Assembly (NCBI GenBank): GCA_016787565.1
Contig: JAEUUG010000012.1
Location: 124,001 to 188,000, forward strand
From: Cyclobacteriaceae bacterium
GTDB taxonomy: Bacteria; Bacteroidota; Bacteroidia; Cytophagales; Cyclobacteriaceae
Length of the DNA stretch: 64,000 bases
Direction of reading: 5' to 3'
Below, one piece after another: positions 54,103 through 61,584 of the stretch. The translations under genes and the position numbers were made by a program. The notes under the pieces are model-generated. The model was not told the DNA's origin, searched no databases, and was given only the letters and a program-made list of their open reading frames with translations. How positions within the stretch are numbered: the stretch's first letter is position 1; every line of letters begins with the position of its first letter.

Positions 54103-55251
54103 ATGCTGGAAGATGCGCTGTCGCAAAAACTGGAAAAGCGTAAACAGGAAAGTTTGCTTCGAAGCCTTATCACCACCTCAGGCTTAACAGACTTTTATTC
54201 CAACGATTACCTTGGGCTGGCCCGTTCGGAAGAACTCTATCAACAAATTCAGAACACTGTTCAAAACCTTCCGCATCAAAATGGAGCAACCGGCTCCCGA
54301 CTGTTATCCGGAAACAATGCTTATACAGAATCGGTAGAGCAGCAACTGGCAACCGTATTCGCTGGAGAACGCGCCCTCATTTTTAATTCCGGGTACACCG
54401 CTAACCTTGCTGTACTTTCTGCTTTACCCCAACGAGGGGATTCCATTCTGTATGATGAGCGGGCACACACGTGCATGAAAGATGGCGCACGACTAAGTCT
54501 GGCGCAACATTTTTCCTTTCGCCACAACGATTTAAATGATCTGGAACAAAAGTTAAAAAAAGCTTCAGGTCAAATCTTCCTTGCTGTTGAATCCATCTAT
54601 TCGATGGATGGTGATGAATGCCCGCTTACTGATTTGGTTACCTTGGCTGAAAAATACAATGCGAATATTGTTTTAGATGAAGCCCACAGCACGGGTGCTT
54701 ATGGTAAAAATGGCAGCGGGCTGGCATGTGCCGTATCGCTCCAACACAAAATTCCTGTTCGCATTTACACGTTTGGAAAAGCAATGGGCATCCACGGTGC
54801 CTGCATTGTCGGGTCTGAAAAAATTATTCAATATCTGATCAATTTTGCCAGGCCTTTTATCTATACCACAGCATTACCCCCGCATAGCATTGCCTCCATA
54901 GCATGTGCCTTTAAATTTCTGTCGAACACTATTTCACTACAAAATACATTACAGTCCAGAATAAACACATTTCTCGTAAACAGTAAATCCATTGCGCAGC
55001 GAATAGAAAGCAAAAGCGCTATTCAAACCGTTTTATTTCCTGGCAACGAAAACGCTCGATCGGCTGCGCACTATTTGCAACAAAATAGACTTGATGTCCG
55101 GGCTATCCTTTCTCCAACTGTTCCAGAAGGATCAGAACGCTTGAGAGTTTGCCTGCATACCTACAACACAGATGAAGAAATTCTAACACTATGCAAAGCA
55201 ATCAAATATCTCACAACAGAAAAAAAACAACATCTTGAACACCTAGATTAA
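54103..55251 (+). CDS. bioF: 8-amino-7-oxononanoate synthase
   Basis: 382 residues of the alpha-oxoamine synthase family, first committed enzyme of the biotin ring pathway (pimeloyl-ACP/CoA plus alanine). DFYSNDYLGLARS, NGATGSRLLSGN, VDEAHSTGAYGKNGSG-type block (VLDEAHSTGAYG), PLP lysine 226 in YTFGKAMGIHGACIVG. Serine palmitoyltransferase-like or sulfonolipid (cysteate) synthases belong to the same superfamily, but bioD and bioA directly behind it settle the assignment. bioD begins 5 bp after its stop. Confidence 0.92.
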   Translation: MLEDALSQKLEKRKQESLLRSLITTSGLTDFYSNDYLGLARSEELYQQIQNTVQNLPHQNGATGSRLLSGNNAYTESVEQQLATVFAGERALIFNSGYTANLAVLSALPQRGDSILYDERAHTCMKDGARLSLAQHFSFRHNDLNDLEQKLKKASGQIFLAVESIYSMDGDECPLTDLVTLAEKYNANIVLDEAHSTGAYGKNGSGLACAVSLQHKIPVRIYTFGKAMGIHGACIVGSEKIIQYLINFARPFIYTTALPPHSIASIACAFKFLSNTISLQNTLQSRINTFLVNSKSIAQRIESKSAIQTVLFPGNENARSAAHYLQQNRLDVRAILSPTVPEGSERLRVCLHTYNTDEEILTLCKAIKYLTTEKKQHLEHLD

Positions 55252-55256
55252 GCAGG

Positions 55257-55868
55257 ATGAACTACTTCATAACAGGAATCGATACGGATAGCGGCAAAAC
55301 ACTAGTTGCGGCTATTCTTTGCGAAGCGCTATTGGCCGACTACTGGAAACCCATACAGGCCGGACTCCCAAAAGATTCCGATACGGTAAAATCATTGATT
55401 CAAAATTCCAGATCATACATTCATTCTGAAAAGTTTTTGCTCCGCACTCCAGCCTCTCCGCATGCAGCGGCAAAAATTGATGGCGTTACCATTTCCCTGG
55501 CTGACTTTGTGCTACCAAAAACATCAAACACATTAATTATTGAGGGAGCAGGAGGTTGCCTCGTTCCCATCAATGATCAGGATTTCATCATTGATCTTGC
55601 GGCACACCTGCATACCGAAATTATTCTGGTTGCCGATCTTTACCTGGGCAGTATTAACCATACGCTGCTTACCATCGAAGCGTTGAAAAAAAGAAACCTC
55701 AACGTCAAAGGGATTATTTTTAACGGAGAGTCAAACCCGGAAAGTGAACGAATTATTCTTTTGCATTCGGGATTTCGATGCTTGTTGCGGATTCCAAAAG
55801 AACACGCAATTAATTCCGCCATCATCACTAAATACGCACAAATCGTGAACACCACCTGGAATGAATAA
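55257..55868 (+). CDS. bioD: ATP-dependent dethiobiotin synthetase
   Basis: 203 residues, slightly shorter than the usual 220-240. P-loop GIDTDSGKTLVAA, the substrate segment YWKPIQAGLPKDSDT, SPHAAAKIDG, and the EGAGGCLVPIND motif of BioD. It closes the ureido ring of dethiobiotin from DAPA, CO2 and ATP. Its end overlaps the bioA start by 8 bp, so translation is coupled. The C-terminal third is the shortened part. Confidence 0.92.
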   Translation: MNYFITGIDTDSGKTLVAAILCEALLADYWKPIQAGLPKDSDTVKSLIQNSRSYIHSEKFLLRTPASPHAAAKIDGVTISLADFVLPKTSNTLIIEGAGGCLVPINDQDFIIDLAAHLHTEIILVADLYLGSINHTLLTIEALKKRNLNVKGIIFNGESNPESERIILLHSGFRCLLRIPKEHAINSAIITKYAQIVNTTWNE

Positions 55869-57138
55869 ATTGTTGGAAATTGATAAAAAAAATATCTGGC
55901 ATCCGTTCACACCCCTGGCCGGAGGGATTGAGCCGTTGCTGATCACATCAGCATCAGGTATTTACCTGCATACGCAAGATGGCAGATCAATACTTGATGC
56001 CATTTCATCATGGTGGGTAAACCTCCACGGACATGCCCATCTGCATCTTGCTGAAGCCCTGGCCACACAAGCCAAAAAGTTGGAGCATGTTATTTTTGCG
56101 GGATTCACCCATGAACCAGCCATACAACTCTCCAAAAACCTATTGAGCATCGTACCCTCCAATCAATCTAAAATTTTCTTTTCTGACAATGGAAGTACTG
56201 CCGTTGAAGTGGCGCTGAAGATGGCCTTACAATACTGGCACAATCAAAAAATAGAGAAACGAAAAATCATTGCATTCGAAGGCGCATACCACGGTGATAC
56301 CTTTGGTGCTATGTCAGTGGGCGATCGTGGAATTTTCACCGCACCCTTTTCCAAATATTTGTTTGATGTTGAGTTTATTCCCTTTCCGGATCAAGCCAAT
56401 CACCAACAGGTTATCGATCAGTTCCAGAAAAGCGTAGCAGACCAAACCGTTGCTGCCTTCATCTTCGAACCACTGGTGCAAGGTGCTGCCGGTATGCGTA
56501 TGTATTCCCCGAAAATTCTGGATGAACTCATTGCCCTGGCGCATCAACACGATGTAGTTTGTATAGCCGATGAAGTCTTTACCGGATTTGGCCGTACCGG
56601 AAAACTCTTTGCATCAGACTACCTTAGAAATAAACCGGATATCATAACCCTTTCAAAAGGATTAACCGGAGGCATGATGCCCATGGGCATTACAACATGC
56701 GCTGAAAAAATTGTTGTCGCCTTTGATACGGATGAATTTTTAAAAACATTTTTCCATGGCCACTCCTATACCGGCAATCCATTAGCCTGTGCTGTTGCAA
56801 ATGCAAGTTTTGAATTGCTGATGCAGGATGAATGCGCTGCCAGTATTAATCGGATTACCAGGCAACATGAGAAATTTGCAGAAAAGCTGGATGGTCATCC
56901 TAACCTGCATGACGTACGGACACTGGGAACCATTCTAGCCATCGAGTTAAAAACAGAAGGAGGAAGTTCGTATACCAGTGACATCCGAAAAAAAATATAC
57001 CCGTACTTTTTAGACCGGAACATTCTCCTCCGGCCGTTGGGTAATATCCTGTATATCCTGCCACCCTATTGTATCACCAATGAAGAGCTGAGCATCATTT
57101 ACAGAACTATTGAAGATTTTCTATCGGGCTTAAAATAA
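55861..57138 (+). CDS. bioA: Adenosylmethionine-8-amino-7-oxononanoate aminotransferase
   Basis: 425 residues, class III PLP aminotransferase. IWHPFTPLAG, SSWWVNLHGHAHLHLAEAL (the BioA-specific active-site block), FEGAYHGDTFGAMSVGD, IADEVFTGFGRTG, cofactor lysine 266 in LSKGLTGGMMPMG, and HGHSYTGNPLACAVA are all present. It converts KAPA to DAPA using S-adenosylmethionine as amino donor. It is last in the bioF-bioD-bioA run. bioB, bioC and bioH/G are not in the window. Confidence 0.95.
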   Translation: MNKLLEIDKKNIWHPFTPLAGGIEPLLITSASGIYLHTQDGRSILDAISSWWVNLHGHAHLHLAEALATQAKKLEHVIFAGFTHEPAIQLSKNLLSIVPSNQSKIFFSDNGSTAVEVALKMALQYWHNQKIEKRKIIAFEGAYHGDTFGAMSVGDRGIFTAPFSKYLFDVEFIPFPDQANHQQVIDQFQKSVADQTVAAFIFEPLVQGAAGMRMYSPKILDELIALAHQHDVVCIADEVFTGFGRTGKLFASDYLRNKPDIITLSKGLTGGMMPMGITTCAEKIVVAFDTDEFLKTFFHGHSYTGNPLACAVANASFELLMQDECAASINRITRQHEKFAEKLDGHPNLHDVRTLGTILAIELKTEGGSSYTSDIRKKIYPYFLDRNILLRPLGNILYILPPYCITNEELSIIYRTIEDFLSGLK

Positions 57139-57189: not shown

Positions 57190-58293
57190 TTACACCCGCT
57201 CTGCCACCTGGTTCATCACCTTCGTTTGTACCTGTATTGATTCCTGGTGAATGAGTTTTAACAAATCGTTGGTAAAATCAGCATTCAAGCCCATCGCCTT
57301 TCCAAGTGAAATCCGGGTTTGAACAATCTCCTCCCACCGGGTTACCTGAAGAATGGTGACGTTATTTTCTTTTTTATACTGACCAATTTTTTCAGAAATC
57401 TTCATACGCGCAGCAATCTTCTGCATGATCTCATCATCCAAATGATCAATCTGGTCACGTAAAATACTCAGCGTATCTTTAAACGTTTTGTTATCCGACA
57501 TCACAGAGCGAACAACCAAACCATCAATAATTTTACTGAGTGCTGCAGGTGTCACCTGTTGTTTCGCATCACTCCAGGCCGCATCGGGGTTTATGTGGGC
57601 TTCAATCATCAAGCCTGCCATATCTAAATCCAATGCCTTCTGGCAAATCAGGGAAATCAATTCACGGTTTCCTGCAATGTGACTTGGATCACAGATGATA
57701 TCCAACTCTGGTATGCGCGTCTTCAATTCGATGGCCATATCCCACATAGGCGCGTTGCGAAATGGCCCTTTTTCAAAAGAAGAAAATCCGCGGTGAATGG
57801 CAGCCATCTTGGTAATGCCTGCTTTATTCAAACGCTCAAACGCTCCGATCCAAAGTTCCAGGTCCGGATTGATTGGATTTTTAATCATCACCGGTATGTC
57901 AACACCTTTCAGTGAATCAGCAACCTCCTGAACAGAGAATGGGTTCACGGTAGTGCGTGCGCCTATCCAAAGAATATCAACACCTGCCTTCAATGCTGCG
58001 TCCACGTGTGCTGCGTTGGCAACTTCTGTTGTCACCGGCAATCCTGTTTCCTTCTTTGCTGCCATGAGCCACTTCAGACCTTCCTCCCCGGCACCTTCAT
58101 ATTGACCTGGACGTGTACGTGGTTTCCAGATTCCAGCGCGCAATGCATGCACCTTTCCTGTGGCGGCCAGTTGCTTGGCTGTAGCAACGGTTTGCTCTTC
58201 TGTTTCCGCGCTGCAAGGGCCACTGATGATGATGGGTTTACTCGCAGTGGGTAACCAGGATGAAATAGATTCAAGTTGTAATACCTTTTTCAT
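57190..58293 (-). CDS. aroF: Bifunctional DAHP synthase / chorismate mutase (type II)
   Basis: 367 residues. The N-terminal 265 residues are a type I-beta DAHP synthase: ISGPCSAETEEQ, RAGIWKPRTRPGQYEGAGEEGL, IWIGARTTVNPFSVQEVA, CDPSHIAGNRELI. The C-terminal 90 are an AroQ chorismate mutase (LSILRDQIDHLDDEIMQKIAARMKISEKIGQYKKE). It makes DAHP at the entry of the shikimate pathway and turns chorismate into prephenate. In such fusions the mutase part often also mediates feedback inhibition. It is the last gene of the Phe/Tyr operon, 50 bp after tyrA. Confidence 0.94.
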   Translation of the reverse strand: MKKVLQLESISSWLPTASKPIIISGPCSAETEEQTVATAKQLAATGKVHALRAGIWKPRTRPGQYEGAGEEGLKWLMAAKKETGLPVTTEVANAAHVDAALKAGVDILWIGARTTVNPFSVQEVADSLKGVDIPVMIKNPINPDLELWIGAFERLNKAGITKMAAIHRGFSSFEKGPFRNAPMWDMAIELKTRIPELDIICDPSHIAGNRELISLICQKALDLDMAGLMIEAHINPDAAWSDAKQQVTPAALSKIIDGLVVRSVMSDNKTFKDTLSILRDQIDHLDDEIMQKIAARMKISEKIGQYKKENNVTILQVTRWEEIVQTRISLGKAMGLNADFTNDLLKLIHQESIQVQTKVMNQVAERV

Positions 58294-58343: not shown

Positions 58344-59255
58344 TTATGGCGTTACAGTTTTAGTAGTCGGCTCTGTGTTGTTTGCATTCAGGTTTTTAGA
58401 TTTTAATTCAATCCCCTCCAGTACCCTGCGTATTTGATTGGCATTACCCATAATCCGGTGAAGTTCTTTTGTATCCTTTTTCAGGAGGTGATAGTGAAAG
58501 CGCTGCAAGTGCATGATGTATTCCTGTAAGGCATTGCTCAGGTAGTCCAGGTTCTGCTCGAAAATCGGTGCCCACATATCGGGCGAACTCTTCGCCAGGC
58601 GCACAGTAGATGCAAAACCACTACCGGCCAATGCAAAAATATTTTTTTCGTCCTTCTCGATATCCAATACCGTTTGCCCCAACAGAAAAGAACTCACGTG
58701 CGACAAATGTGAAACATAGGCCACATGCTTATCGTGCTCCTCGGCCTCCATGAAGATGGTATTCAAACCCATGGCATCAAATACTTTTAATGCCACGGTC
58801 AAAGCCTGATCCGATGATTTATCACGTTCACAAATGATGTTCGTTTTGTTGCGCATCATACCTTCCAATGCAGCTTCCGGTCCGGAATTTTCGGTTCCCC
58901 AGATCGGGTGCGATGCCACATATTGATTCCGCTTCGGATGATTTCCAACGGATCGGCAAATGTTACTTTTTGTTGAGCCTGTATCAATCACAACCGCTTC
59001 AGGCTTTATAACATCCAGCACAGAAGAAAGTAGTTGGGTAATCGCGTTTACCGGTATGGCCATGATCACCACATCGGCCACAGCCAGGGCTTGATCCTCC
59101 GACAAGATTTTATCAACCAACCCAAGTTGCAATGCCTTTTGTGCATGCACTTCACGAAGATCAACACCAATCAACGAGGTCGCCAACCCAGACTTTCGCA
59201 AGTCCAGTGCCATCGATCCACCAATTAATCCCAAACCAATTATCGTTACATTCAT
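58344..59255 (-). CDS. tyrA: Prephenate dehydrogenase
   Basis: 303 residues from the ATG at 59255 (MNVTIIGLGLIGGSMALDL), which places the Rossmann loop GLGLIGGS at the start; the longer frame has no sensible N-terminus. DTGSTKSNICRSV, SHPIWGTENSGPEAAL and the dimer-forming helical C-terminal domain (HVAYVSHLSHVSSFLLGQTVL, GSGFASTVRLAKSSPDMW) match TyrA. It oxidises and decarboxylates prephenate to 4-hydroxyphenylpyruvate. No ACT domain follows. The gap to the aminotransferase stop is only 4 bp. Confidence 0.93.
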   Translation of the reverse strand: MNVTIIGLGLIGGSMALDLRKSGLATSLIGVDLREVHAQKALQLGLVDKILSEDQALAVADVVIMAIPVNAITQLLSSVLDVIKPEAVVIDTGSTKSNICRSVGNHPKRNQYVASHPIWGTENSGPEAALEGMMRNKTNIICERDKSSDQALTVALKVFDAMGLNTIFMEAEEHDKHVAYVSHLSHVSSFLLGQTVLDIEKDEKNIFALAGSGFASTVRLAKSSPDMWAPIFEQNLDYLSNALQEYIMHLQRFHYHLLKKDTKELHRIMGNANQIRRVLEGIELKSKNLNANNTEPTTKTVTP

Positions 59256-59259
59256 TTCC

Positions 59260-60468
59260 TTACACGTTATGATGAACAGTAGGCTGTTGACCGTTACCCG
59301 TTGACTTCTCCTGCACAAATCCCGCTATCCGAACTAACGCCTGCTTCAAAATTTCTTCGGTACAGCACAGTGAAATCCGGATATATCTTCGTCCGGTTTC
59401 TCCGAAAATAAAACCGGGTGTAATAAATACTTTCGTTGCATAGAGTATCTCATCAATCCACTTTTCCACATTTGGAATATGATCCGGGGCCTTGGCCCAT
59501 ACGAACAAGCCGGATTGCTGATCGTCATAACTACAACCCAACACTTCGAGAATTTGTTTTGCCACGTTCTTGCGGAGACTGTAAATTGTATTCAACGCTG
59601 TAAACCAACTCGTATCATTTTTCAGCGCCTCCACGGCAGCGTGCTGAAGGCCTAAAAACATACCCGAATCCATATTGCTTTTTACACGCAACACAGCATC
59701 GATATAACTGGCATGGCCTGCAACCCAACCAATACGCCAGCCAGCCATGTTATGCGATTTACTAAGTGAGTTCAACTCCAGCGCAACCTCTTCTGCTCCT
59801 TCTATTGAAAGAATGCTTAGCGGATGATCATTCAAAATCAGGCTATACGGATTGTCATTTACAATCAGAAACGCATGCTGACGGGCGAGGTCAACCAACG
59901 CTTTTAATTCTTCGCGCGATGCCACTCTTCCGGTAGGCATGTGCGGAAAATTCACCCACATCAATTTCACTCGTGAAAGATCCGCTTTTTTCAGCGCTTC
60001 CATATCAATACCCCAGTTCGATTCCTCGCGCAATGTGTAAGGCTTCAACGTTGCCCCAACCAGTTTAGCAACAGACGAATATGTTGGGTAACCAGGATTA
60101 GGAATCAGCACTTCATCGCCCTCGTTCAAAAAAGCCATGGAGATGTGCATGATACCTTCCTTCGATCCCATTAACGGCAGAATCATCGTCTCTGGATTCA
60201 GATCTGTTCCATAAATGCGTTGATTGAATTCCGCTATAGCTTTTCGCAACTGCGGAATGCCTTTATAATTTTGATACCCATGGTTTGCCGGATTTTTAGC
60301 AGAAGCAATCAATGCATCAATCGAACTATCCGAGGGTGCCTGATCCGGACTACCAATGCCCAAATTAATAACACGTAATTCAGGCGAATCGAGACTTCTT
60401 ACCTCAGCGAGTTTCTTGCTGAAATAATATTCCTCTACGTTGGCGATTCTGTTTGCTGTTTGTATCAT
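59260..60468 (-). CDS. Class I/II PLP aminotransferase (probable aromatic aminotransferase)
   Basis: 402 residues, fold type I. INLGIGSPDQAPSDSSIDAL, the nucleotide-loop PLMGSKEGIMHISMAFL, NPGYPTYSS, VNDNPYSLIL, cofactor lysine in LNSLSKSHNMAGWRIGWVAGH, and RYIRISLCCTEE with the substrate-carboxylate Arg. Its placement between pheA and tyrA indicates transamination of phenylpyruvate and 4-hydroxyphenylpyruvate; sequence alone would also allow LL-diaminopimelate or aspartate aminotransferase. The next gene starts 4 bp after its stop. Confidence 0.88.
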   Translation of the reverse strand: MIQTANRIANVEEYYFSKKLAEVRSLDSPELRVINLGIGSPDQAPSDSSIDALIASAKNPANHGYQNYKGIPQLRKAIAEFNQRIYGTDLNPETMILPLMGSKEGIMHISMAFLNEGDEVLIPNPGYPTYSSVAKLVGATLKPYTLREESNWGIDMEALKKADLSRVKLMWVNFPHMPTGRVASREELKALVDLARQHAFLIVNDNPYSLILNDHPLSILSIEGAEEVALELNSLSKSHNMAGWRIGWVAGHASYIDAVLRVKSNMDSGMFLGLQHAAVEALKNDTSWFTALNTIYSLRKNVAKQILEVLGCSYDDQQSGLFVWAKAPDHIPNVEKWIDEILYATKVFITPGFIFGETGRRYIRISLCCTEEILKQALVRIAGFVQEKSTGNGQQPTVHHNV

Positions 60469-60509: not shown

Positions 60510-61352
60510 CTACCGGTATTCTATCTTACCCTTTTTATACTCACCTAATACATTCAAATTCTTTACCTGGCGGAGCACTTCCCGCATAGCAATGTCATAA
60601 CCCTTGCGTCTTTTCCATTCCACATCAATGTGAATGGAGTATTCGCTAGGCCTGCCAATAATAGGAATGGATTGAATCTTGGTCAGGTTAATGCTGTTGT
60701 TTTTAAAGGTCATCAAAGCCTCTGCTAAACTTCCCACTTCATTAGCAACCTCAAAACTTAACGATGCCTTGTTGCTCTCAGCTTTTCCGTTGCTGCGCTT
60801 CGTTAAGATCAAAAAGCGTGTAAAGTTTTTCTTATGCGTTTCAATTCGCTTCTCCAAAATCTGAAGTTTGTACTTCTTGGCGGCAAATTCATTCGCTATC
60901 GCGGCTGTATTTTTCAATTTAAATTCTTTCACGCGTTTTGCCGACAATGCCGTGTCATCGCTTTCGCGGATTTCCACACCCGTGAGTGCATGCAAATACT
61001 CAGCACATTGCCGGATGGCCATGGGGTGCGACTCAATAGTTTTAATGTCCGATAGTTTCACACCCGGCAGCGCCAGCAGGTGCATGTGGATAGGCAGGTA
61101 TAATTCTCCAATGATGTTGAAATGATATTCCTGCAGTAAAAAATAGTTGGGCAGGATGCTGCCGGCTATACTGTTTTCGATCGCCATAACAGCATAGTCG
61201 GCATGGCCATTGCGAAGACCTTCACACAATTGATGAAATGACAAGCACTCAACCGTTTCAATAGGCTCATTGAAATACGTCATGGCCGCAACCTCATGAA
61301 AGCTGGTAGCGATTCCCTGTATTGCAATGCGTAATTTCTTCTTCTTGGCCAT
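60510..61352 (-). CDS. pheA: Prephenate dehydratase
   Basis: 280 residues. LRIAIQGIATSFHEVAAMTYF, NGHADYAVMAIENSIAGSILPNY, SHPMAIRQCAEYL and the catalytic Thr-Arg-Phe in NFTRFLILTKR define the dehydratase domain (1-185). A C-terminal ACT domain (about 195-270, SLAEALMTFKNNSINLTKIQSIPI and GRPSEYSIHIDV) gives phenylalanine feedback. It makes phenylpyruvate. It is the first structural gene of the operon and lies behind the attenuator at 61398-61535; monofunctional, as the mutase is fused to the DAHP synthase. Confidence 0.94.
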   Translation of the reverse strand: MAKKKKLRIAIQGIATSFHEVAAMTYFNEPIETVECLSFHQLCEGLRNGHADYAVMAIENSIAGSILPNYFLLQEYHFNIIGELYLPIHMHLLALPGVKLSDIKTIESHPMAIRQCAEYLHALTGVEIRESDDTALSAKRVKEFKLKNTAAIANEFAAKKYKLQILEKRIETHKKNFTRFLILTKRSNGKAESNKASLSFEVANEVGSLAEALMTFKNNSINLTKIQSIPIIGRPSEYSIHIDVEWKRRKGYDIAMREVLRQVKNLNVLGEYKKGKIEYR

Positions 61353-61397: not shown

Positions 61398-61480
61398 AAA
61401 TAAAAAGTCCCGGTTTTGCCGGGACTTTCGCTGAGGTTTTCGTTATTCTTTTTCAACAACACACCGCTCTTAAAGTCCCG
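61398..61480 (-). promoter_or_regulatory. Phe/Tyr transcription attenuator (terminator/antiterminator)
   Basis: Minus-strand segments: A, 61528-61518; B, 61480-61472 (CGGGACTTT, ending at the leader stop); C, 61463-61453; D, 61428-61419; E, 61413-61404. D and E form a 10-bp terminator hairpin (AAAGTCCCGG/CCGGGACTTT, 5-nt loop) followed by TTATTTT. B equals the 3' part of E and pairs 9 bp with D (antiterminator). A pairs perfectly with C over 11 bp and, because it encloses B, opposes B-D. Stalling on aromatic codons would mask A and favour antitermination; translation to the stop masks B and favours termination. Confidence 0.88.
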
Positions 61481-61535
61481 CTCGGGTACTAAAGAAGTAG
61501 TAATAAAAATAAAAAAATGTGTTGTTGACCTTCAT
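61470..61535 (-). CDS. pheL: Phe/Tyr leader peptide
   Basis: A 21-residue peptide, MKVNNTFFYFYYYFFSTRAGL, read in parts as MKVNNT, nine consecutive aromatic residues (five Phe, four Tyr), then STRAGL. The ATG is 18 bp after the -7 element at 61553, and the stop overlaps antiterminator segment B. The mix of both amino acids fits an operon making Phe and Tyr. The peptide itself need have no function. Symbol used by analogy with enteric pheL; no homology is claimed. Confidence 0.88.
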   Translation of the reverse strand: MKVNNTFFYFYYYFFSTRAGL

Positions 61536-61552
61536 TTCAATCTTGATGTGTT

Positions 61553-61584
61553 CAAAGATAAAAGCATTTTATTCGGAGTTGCAA
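61553..61584 (-). promoter_or_regulatory. Promoter of the Phe/Tyr operon
   Basis: Minus strand: TTG (61584-61582), 21-bp spacer, TATCTTTG (61560-61553), an exact TAnnTTTG. The transcript would start about 10 nt before the leader-peptide ATG. Confidence 0.75.

Follow-up and report, generated by a model that had tools for sequence, protein, structure and literature searches.

A probable ribosome-mediated attenuator with mixed Phe and Tyr codons before an aromatic amino-acid operon, and its relatives in Bacteroidota

How a member of the Cyclobacteriaceae might couple transcription of its aromatic amino-acid operon to the supply of charged tRNA, and which amino acids would count, is the question raised by one short region of the 64,000-nucleotide stretch analysed here (the window). 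In Proteobacteria, ribosome-mediated attenuation is a textbook mechanism; to our knowledge it is barely documented in Bacteroidota, which start translation without Shine-Dalgarno sequences. The region, 61584-61398 on the minus strand, lies directly 5' of four genes identified by Pfam:

60510..61352, minus strand: pheA, prephenate dehydratase with ACT domain (PF00800; PF01842 below its cut-off)
59260..60468, minus strand: class I/II aminotransferase (PF00155)
58344..59255, minus strand: tyrA, prephenate dehydrogenase (PF02153, PF20463)
57190..58293, minus strand: aroF-CM, DAHP synthase fused to chorismate mutase type II (PF00793, PF01817)

Convergent to this operon, three plus-strand genes at 54103-57138 resemble bioF, bioD and bioA of biotin synthesis by eye. 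The first-pass annotation had placed a promoter, a leader with nine aromatic codons and three helices before the operon, and both the coordinates, which match to the base, and the Pfam assignments agree with it. Sequence inspection and pairing analysis give the following parts:

61582..61584, minus strand: TTG, -33 element of a Bacteroidota-type promoter, 21-nt spacing to -7
61553..61560, minus strand: -7 element TATCTTTG, following the Bacteroidota consensus TAnnTTTG described in PMC7366714
61470..61535, minus strand: leader peptide ORF MKVNNTFFYFYYYFFSTRAGL, 21 aa plus TAA, conserved in relatives
61518..61528, minus strand: segment A, pairs with C over 11 bp
61491..61517, minus strand: nine consecutive Phe/Tyr codons, 5 Phe and 4 Tyr
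61472..61480, minus strand: segment B, 5' arm of the antiterminator, 9 bp with D at 61428-61420
61453..61463, minus strand: segment C, partner of A
61419..61429, minus strand: segment D, 5' arm of the terminator and alternative partner of B
61403..61413, minus strand: segment E, 3' arm of the terminator
61398..61407, minus strand: T-rich run of the intrinsic terminator

Leader codons 7-15 read TTT TTT TAT TTT TAT TAC TAC TTC TTT. A sigma-70 promoter scan of the region gave no match, as expected for Bacteroidota. The claimed lengths of A-C (11 bp) and B-D (9 bp) hold in the window sequence, where the pairings exceed those with shuffled partners (z = 6.2 and 4.8, respectively), and the whole leader folds with z = -2.6 against shuffles. 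The terminator was described as a 10-bp stem with a T-run; this is correct, and the D-E stem reaches 11 bp if one G-T pair is counted. Two further statements stand in part. The stop codon was said to lie in B, and the two do overlap, but the stop (61472-61470) shares only the last base of B. A-C and B-D were said to exclude each other because they cross; they do cross, but the connecting loops are long enough for an H-type pseudoknot, so crossing alone does not prove exclusion, and strict mutual exclusion is something we infer.

An attenuator of this kind is recognised by a short ORF rich in codons for the operon's end products, an intrinsic terminator between that ORF and the first gene, and an alternative antiterminator helix set by ribosome position. 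The first is present as a predicted ORF; the second is present as the 11-bp stem and T-run between the leader ORF and pheA, with a covarying D-E stem; the third comes from modelling, with a B-D helix that is specific to each locus. In a folding model that masks the ribosome footprint and folds the RNA made before E, the probability of B-D in the window stays at 0.97-0.98 while the A-site is on any of codons 7-15, drops to 0.24 at codon 16 and is 0.00 at codon 17 and every later position up to the stop. Counted from where the aromatic run ends, the modelled switch-off point falls between -2 and +3 codons in 77 of 79 loci, and this position holds for three footprint sizes in the 79 loci. B was picked as the stretch 3' of the run that best complements D, and therefore owes its downstream place partly to this construction, but not its closeness to the run. 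The switch thus runs, in the model, in the direction that the proposed attenuation logic predicts, and that logic is supported.

The mechanism would involve ribosome stalling, polymerase termination, ribosome-polymerase coupling and a response to each amino acid. Transcription would start shortly 5' of the leader, and a ribosome would begin the leader peptide. With too little charged tRNA-Phe or tRNA-Tyr, the ribosome would stall in the aromatic run and cover A; with A blocked, A-C would not form, B would pair with D, and the operon would be transcribed. If both charged tRNAs were plentiful, the ribosome would enter B and the stop codon, B could not hold D, and D-E with its T-run would form, stopping RNA polymerase about 50 nt 5' of pheA. 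Were the leader left untranslated, A-C would form first and hold B in its loop, so that termination would again be favoured. In the ribosome-free model, A-C has a probability of 0.96-0.98 as long as D has not yet been transcribed. Over about the next 10 nt, B-D prevails at equilibrium, and with E present the favoured state is D-E together with A-C. Since B-D is ahead of A-C for about 10 nt before E, termination without translation rests on kinetics and is an expectation.

The place of the stop codon varies among relatives. In about a quarter of them, the leader ORF runs through B and stops at C, so a stop codon in B is not a general rule; in such leaders, ribosome release would have to let A-C form. 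The leader ORFs of L038-L051 and similar loci, for instance, read through B to a stop at C (..GLERESVC). Where the stop lies at C, the model retains B-D with a ribosome on the stop codon (18 of 79 loci).

Comparison with relatives shows how constant the arrangement is. A scan for an aromatic leader ORF, a terminator and a B-D antiterminator, run over 151 pheA loci (1.30 Mb), matched 89 of them, every match lying within 420 bp 5' of pheA. Elsewhere in the 1.30 Mb it gave no match on the pheA strand and two on the opposite strand; the absence of same-strand matches away from pheA indicates that the arrangement is not due to chance. Within the family, the 16 close loci, that of the window among them, have PheA identities of 68-100%, and every one carries leader and terminator; of 14 more distant loci, 7 have the leader element. 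Examples of these leaders are MNLFINTFYFYFFSPRPGIME and METTTYFNYFFFYFRSKAPGLER. In a named collection, leaders were found in Chryseosolibacter, Parachryseolinea and many Cyclobacteriaceae MAGs, as well as in Sphingobacterium, Parapedobacter, Olivibacter and Desertivirga, and genomes of other Bacteroidota families again carry the leader directly 5' of pheA. From these sequences, the attenuator appears ancient and widespread in Bacteroidota. Homologous operons, to which the first-pass annotation had pointed as a check, bear it out: across several families of the phylum they retain leader and terminator, and A and C, like B and D, pair in a locus-specific way.

Two loci deserve separate mention. 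At L197, a tandem pair of aromatic leaders (2631-2900), both with a terminator of their own, stands before a single pheA. L076, filed under an Acidobacteria MAG, has both the leader and the operon, and its PheA groups within the Cyclobacteriaceae; the contig is probably a binning error, or else reflects transfer.

The helices themselves are maintained by matched changes. In a MAFFT alignment of 41 leaders, D-E is 99% paired, and 6 of its 10 pairs show double changes, where shuffles reach at most 4. In the same plain alignment, the covariation of A-C and B-D is weak, probably owing to leaders that are out of register with one another, and an anchored permutation of own against swapped partners is the better test of these helices. 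Across 37 non-redundant loci and 5000 permutations, the own-locus sum for A-C was 693.5 (permuted 558 +/- 17) and for B-D 698 (permuted 634 +/- 11), each above all 5000 permutations; significance per locus is modest for A-C, with p<0.05 in 15 of the 37. B, D and E co-vary, for example, as CGGGGCTT, AAAGCCCCGA and TCGGGGCTTT in L045 and as TCCGAGATC, GGGTCTCGGA and TTCGAGACC in L022. Within the codon run, differences over locus pairs comprise 506 synonymous, 783 aromatic-to-aromatic and 103 other changes, and the excess of the first two suggests that selection acts on aromatic identity. Taken with the anatomy and the modelled switch, these data lead us to put at about 0.92 the probability that the element controls the aromatic amino-acid operon by ribosome-mediated attenuation of transcription.

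The leader also follows one particular gene. It is present in 85 of 99 pheA operons with aroF-CM and in none of 42 without it (Fisher 4e-24, a value not to be taken literally because the loci are related). Fourteen aroF-linked loci were unmatched by the scan, and five of these have visible leaders nonetheless. Among L113, L126 and L131-L144 are pheA-aminotransferase-tyrA operons lacking both aroF-CM and leader. A PheA tree of 108 rows requires four changes of the label "no aroF, no leader", and well-supported branches force at least three of them, so that aroF-CM and the leader have appeared or disappeared together more than once. In Sphingobacteriaceae, aroF-CM is the only one of the three partner genes found downstream of pheA; the leaders there retain Phe and Tyr codons, often with Trp as well.

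This distribution bears on which amino acids are sensed. Among 71 distinct leaders, 66 contain at least two Phe and at least two Tyr codons, and 19 contain Trp. Phe and Tyr both occur among the first three aromatic codons in 64 of the 71, where 55.5 would be expected and the permutation maximum is 67, so that this order carries no weight in the argument. Leaders mixing Phe, Tyr and Trp codons fit the sensor one would expect for an operon containing the first step shared by all three aromatic amino-acid pathways. The attenuator could be real and yet answer essentially to Phe, with the Tyr codons as passengers or fine tuning, a reading we hold to be doubtful though worth serious attention: the Corynebacterium glutamicum leader aroR, which has Phe-Tyr-Phe before aroF, reportedly responds to Phe limitation and not to Tyr (PMC11802643), and Phe outnumbers Tyr in the aromatic runs (means of 4.1 and 3.1). 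The near-universal pairing of at least two codons of each kind speaks against it, as does the Phe/Tyr mix kept in the Sphingobacteriaceae operons, which are without tyrA; moreover, the window has four Tyr codons, the first at run position 3, inside the modelled antitermination zone. By its codon content, one leader sensing Tyr as well as Phe is plausible. A broader proposal, an ancient Bacteroidota-wide sensor of pooled aromatic aminoacyl-tRNAs (Phe and Tyr, with Trp in about a quarter of leaders) that is kept only while aroF-CM stays in the operon, has in our judgement an even chance of being right. If true, such a pooled-aromatic attenuator would imply coupling of ribosome and RNA polymerase in a phylum whose translation starts without Shine-Dalgarno sequences.

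Readings that dispense with the ribosome fare worse. A riboswitch-like terminator sensing a metabolite or protein, with the small ORF incidental, would suit a terminator and antiterminator taken alone and a stable full-length fold; it is nevertheless improbable, since the aromatic codon run is the most constant feature, with synonymous and Phe/Tyr/Trp exchanges, the sequences of A and C vary while their pairing persists, and the element matches no Rfam riboswitch. A constitutive terminator or mRNA-stability hairpin beside a fortuitous ORF, imaginable in A/T-rich intergenic DNA where chance alone yields many TTT and TAT codons, is the least credible reading and is already contradicted by the comparative data, namely the conservation of the leader across families, the zero same-strand and two reverse-strand matches away from pheA in 1.30 Mb, and the lack of leaders in all 42 pheA operons without aroF-CM.

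Ribosome-mediated attenuation at pheA would also have company in the same genome. A leader with five consecutive His codons, MNKAKNINIHHHHHVNCTVCGLSMF, precedes hisG with its own A-C, B-D and D-E (L223 1178-1307, contig C18), and on its sequence is a second complete candidate attenuator. A Trp leader, MMRLTNIAWWWHISKHDM, precedes trpE with a 10-bp antiterminator and a 13-bp terminator (L224 1289-1405, contig C11), and is not recognised by Rfam Bacteroid-trp. An Ile/Val/Leu-rich ORF with VVIILVILILKP, followed by a strong terminator (L227, reverse strand 240-411, contig C2), precedes an aminotransferase that resembles IlvE by eye and is itself upstream of ilvD; it is probably a branched-chain attenuator. 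With his, trp and probable ilv leaders together, attenuation looks like a general habit of the organism.

These leaders matter in several ways. No Rfam family recognises the window element, and regulon annotation benefits from knowing it, as the his, trp and probably ilv leaders emerged in the same genome once sought. Phylum-wide leaders with clear switches offer a ready test of transcription-translation coupling in Bacteroidota. The set also allows one to ask how a leader lacking a Shine-Dalgarno sequence starts in time and whether a single leader reports two or three aromatic amino acids.

Part of this ground has been touched before. Some Bacteroidetes/Chlorobi attenuators are reportedly listed by Vitreschak et al. 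2004. Small ORFs of B. thetaiotaomicron resemble attenuation leaders (PMC7366714), and a literature search for a described Phe/Tyr leader in Bacteroidota returned PMC9723704 only. That source reports clues to leader-peptide attenuation before amino-acid operons of F. psychrophilum and a conserved structured 5' element before pheA in Flavobacteriaceae with no Rfam hit. The first-pass annotation was therefore right about the phylum and implied more novelty than this earlier report allows. The F. psychrophilum element shares phylum and gene with the window attenuator and is likely the same element.

Other known elements were compared as well. Bacteroid-trp RNA (RF01692), a Bacteroidetes cis-regulatory motif named for trp (PMC2864571), shares phylum and cis-regulatory role and is not the window element: it has no match at the locus, and the best score elsewhere in the genome is 22.3 bits against a cut-off of 49. 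Sub-threshold Rfam matches to SpF25, STnc230, FasX and Thr_leader were rejected as chance, being mostly driven by the terminator. C. glutamicum aroR shares Phe and Tyr codons, a DAHP synthase operon and ribosome-mediated attenuation, but has only three aromatic codons, belongs to another phylum and operon, and reportedly responds to Phe only (PMC11802643). The uORFC-13-1 motif, found before aroF only in Acholeplasma and environmental sequences, shares a uORF with Phe codon(s) and a terminator before DAHP synthase (PMC8632094); its definition asks for at least one Phe codon only, and its structure is unlike that of the window leader.

A close parallel is E. coli pheL (RF01859, Phe_leader). The window aligns end to end with this model at 32.8 bits (E 5e-4), below the 55-bit gathering threshold, and the loci of 20 relatives gave no gathering-level match; given the shared layout and this sub-threshold score, the data support saying that the element works like pheL, not that it is Rfam Phe_leader. 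Side by side, both leaders precede pheA, and their A-C, B-D and D-E helices follow one order and cross in the same way, with A-C enclosing B and a stop codon adjoining B. Unlike pheL, the window leader contains Tyr besides Phe, its A adjoins the aromatic codons rather than lying within them, its A-C has 11 bp instead of 24 bp, and the operon it governs, from a Bacteroidota-type promoter, has four genes, those for tyrA and DAHP synthase among them. Since pheL has the same A-B-C-D-E layout, the window element would represent ordinary ribosome-mediated attenuation, a well-supported case of a known kind, and the new information is the broad distribution of such leaders and their linkage to aroF-CM.
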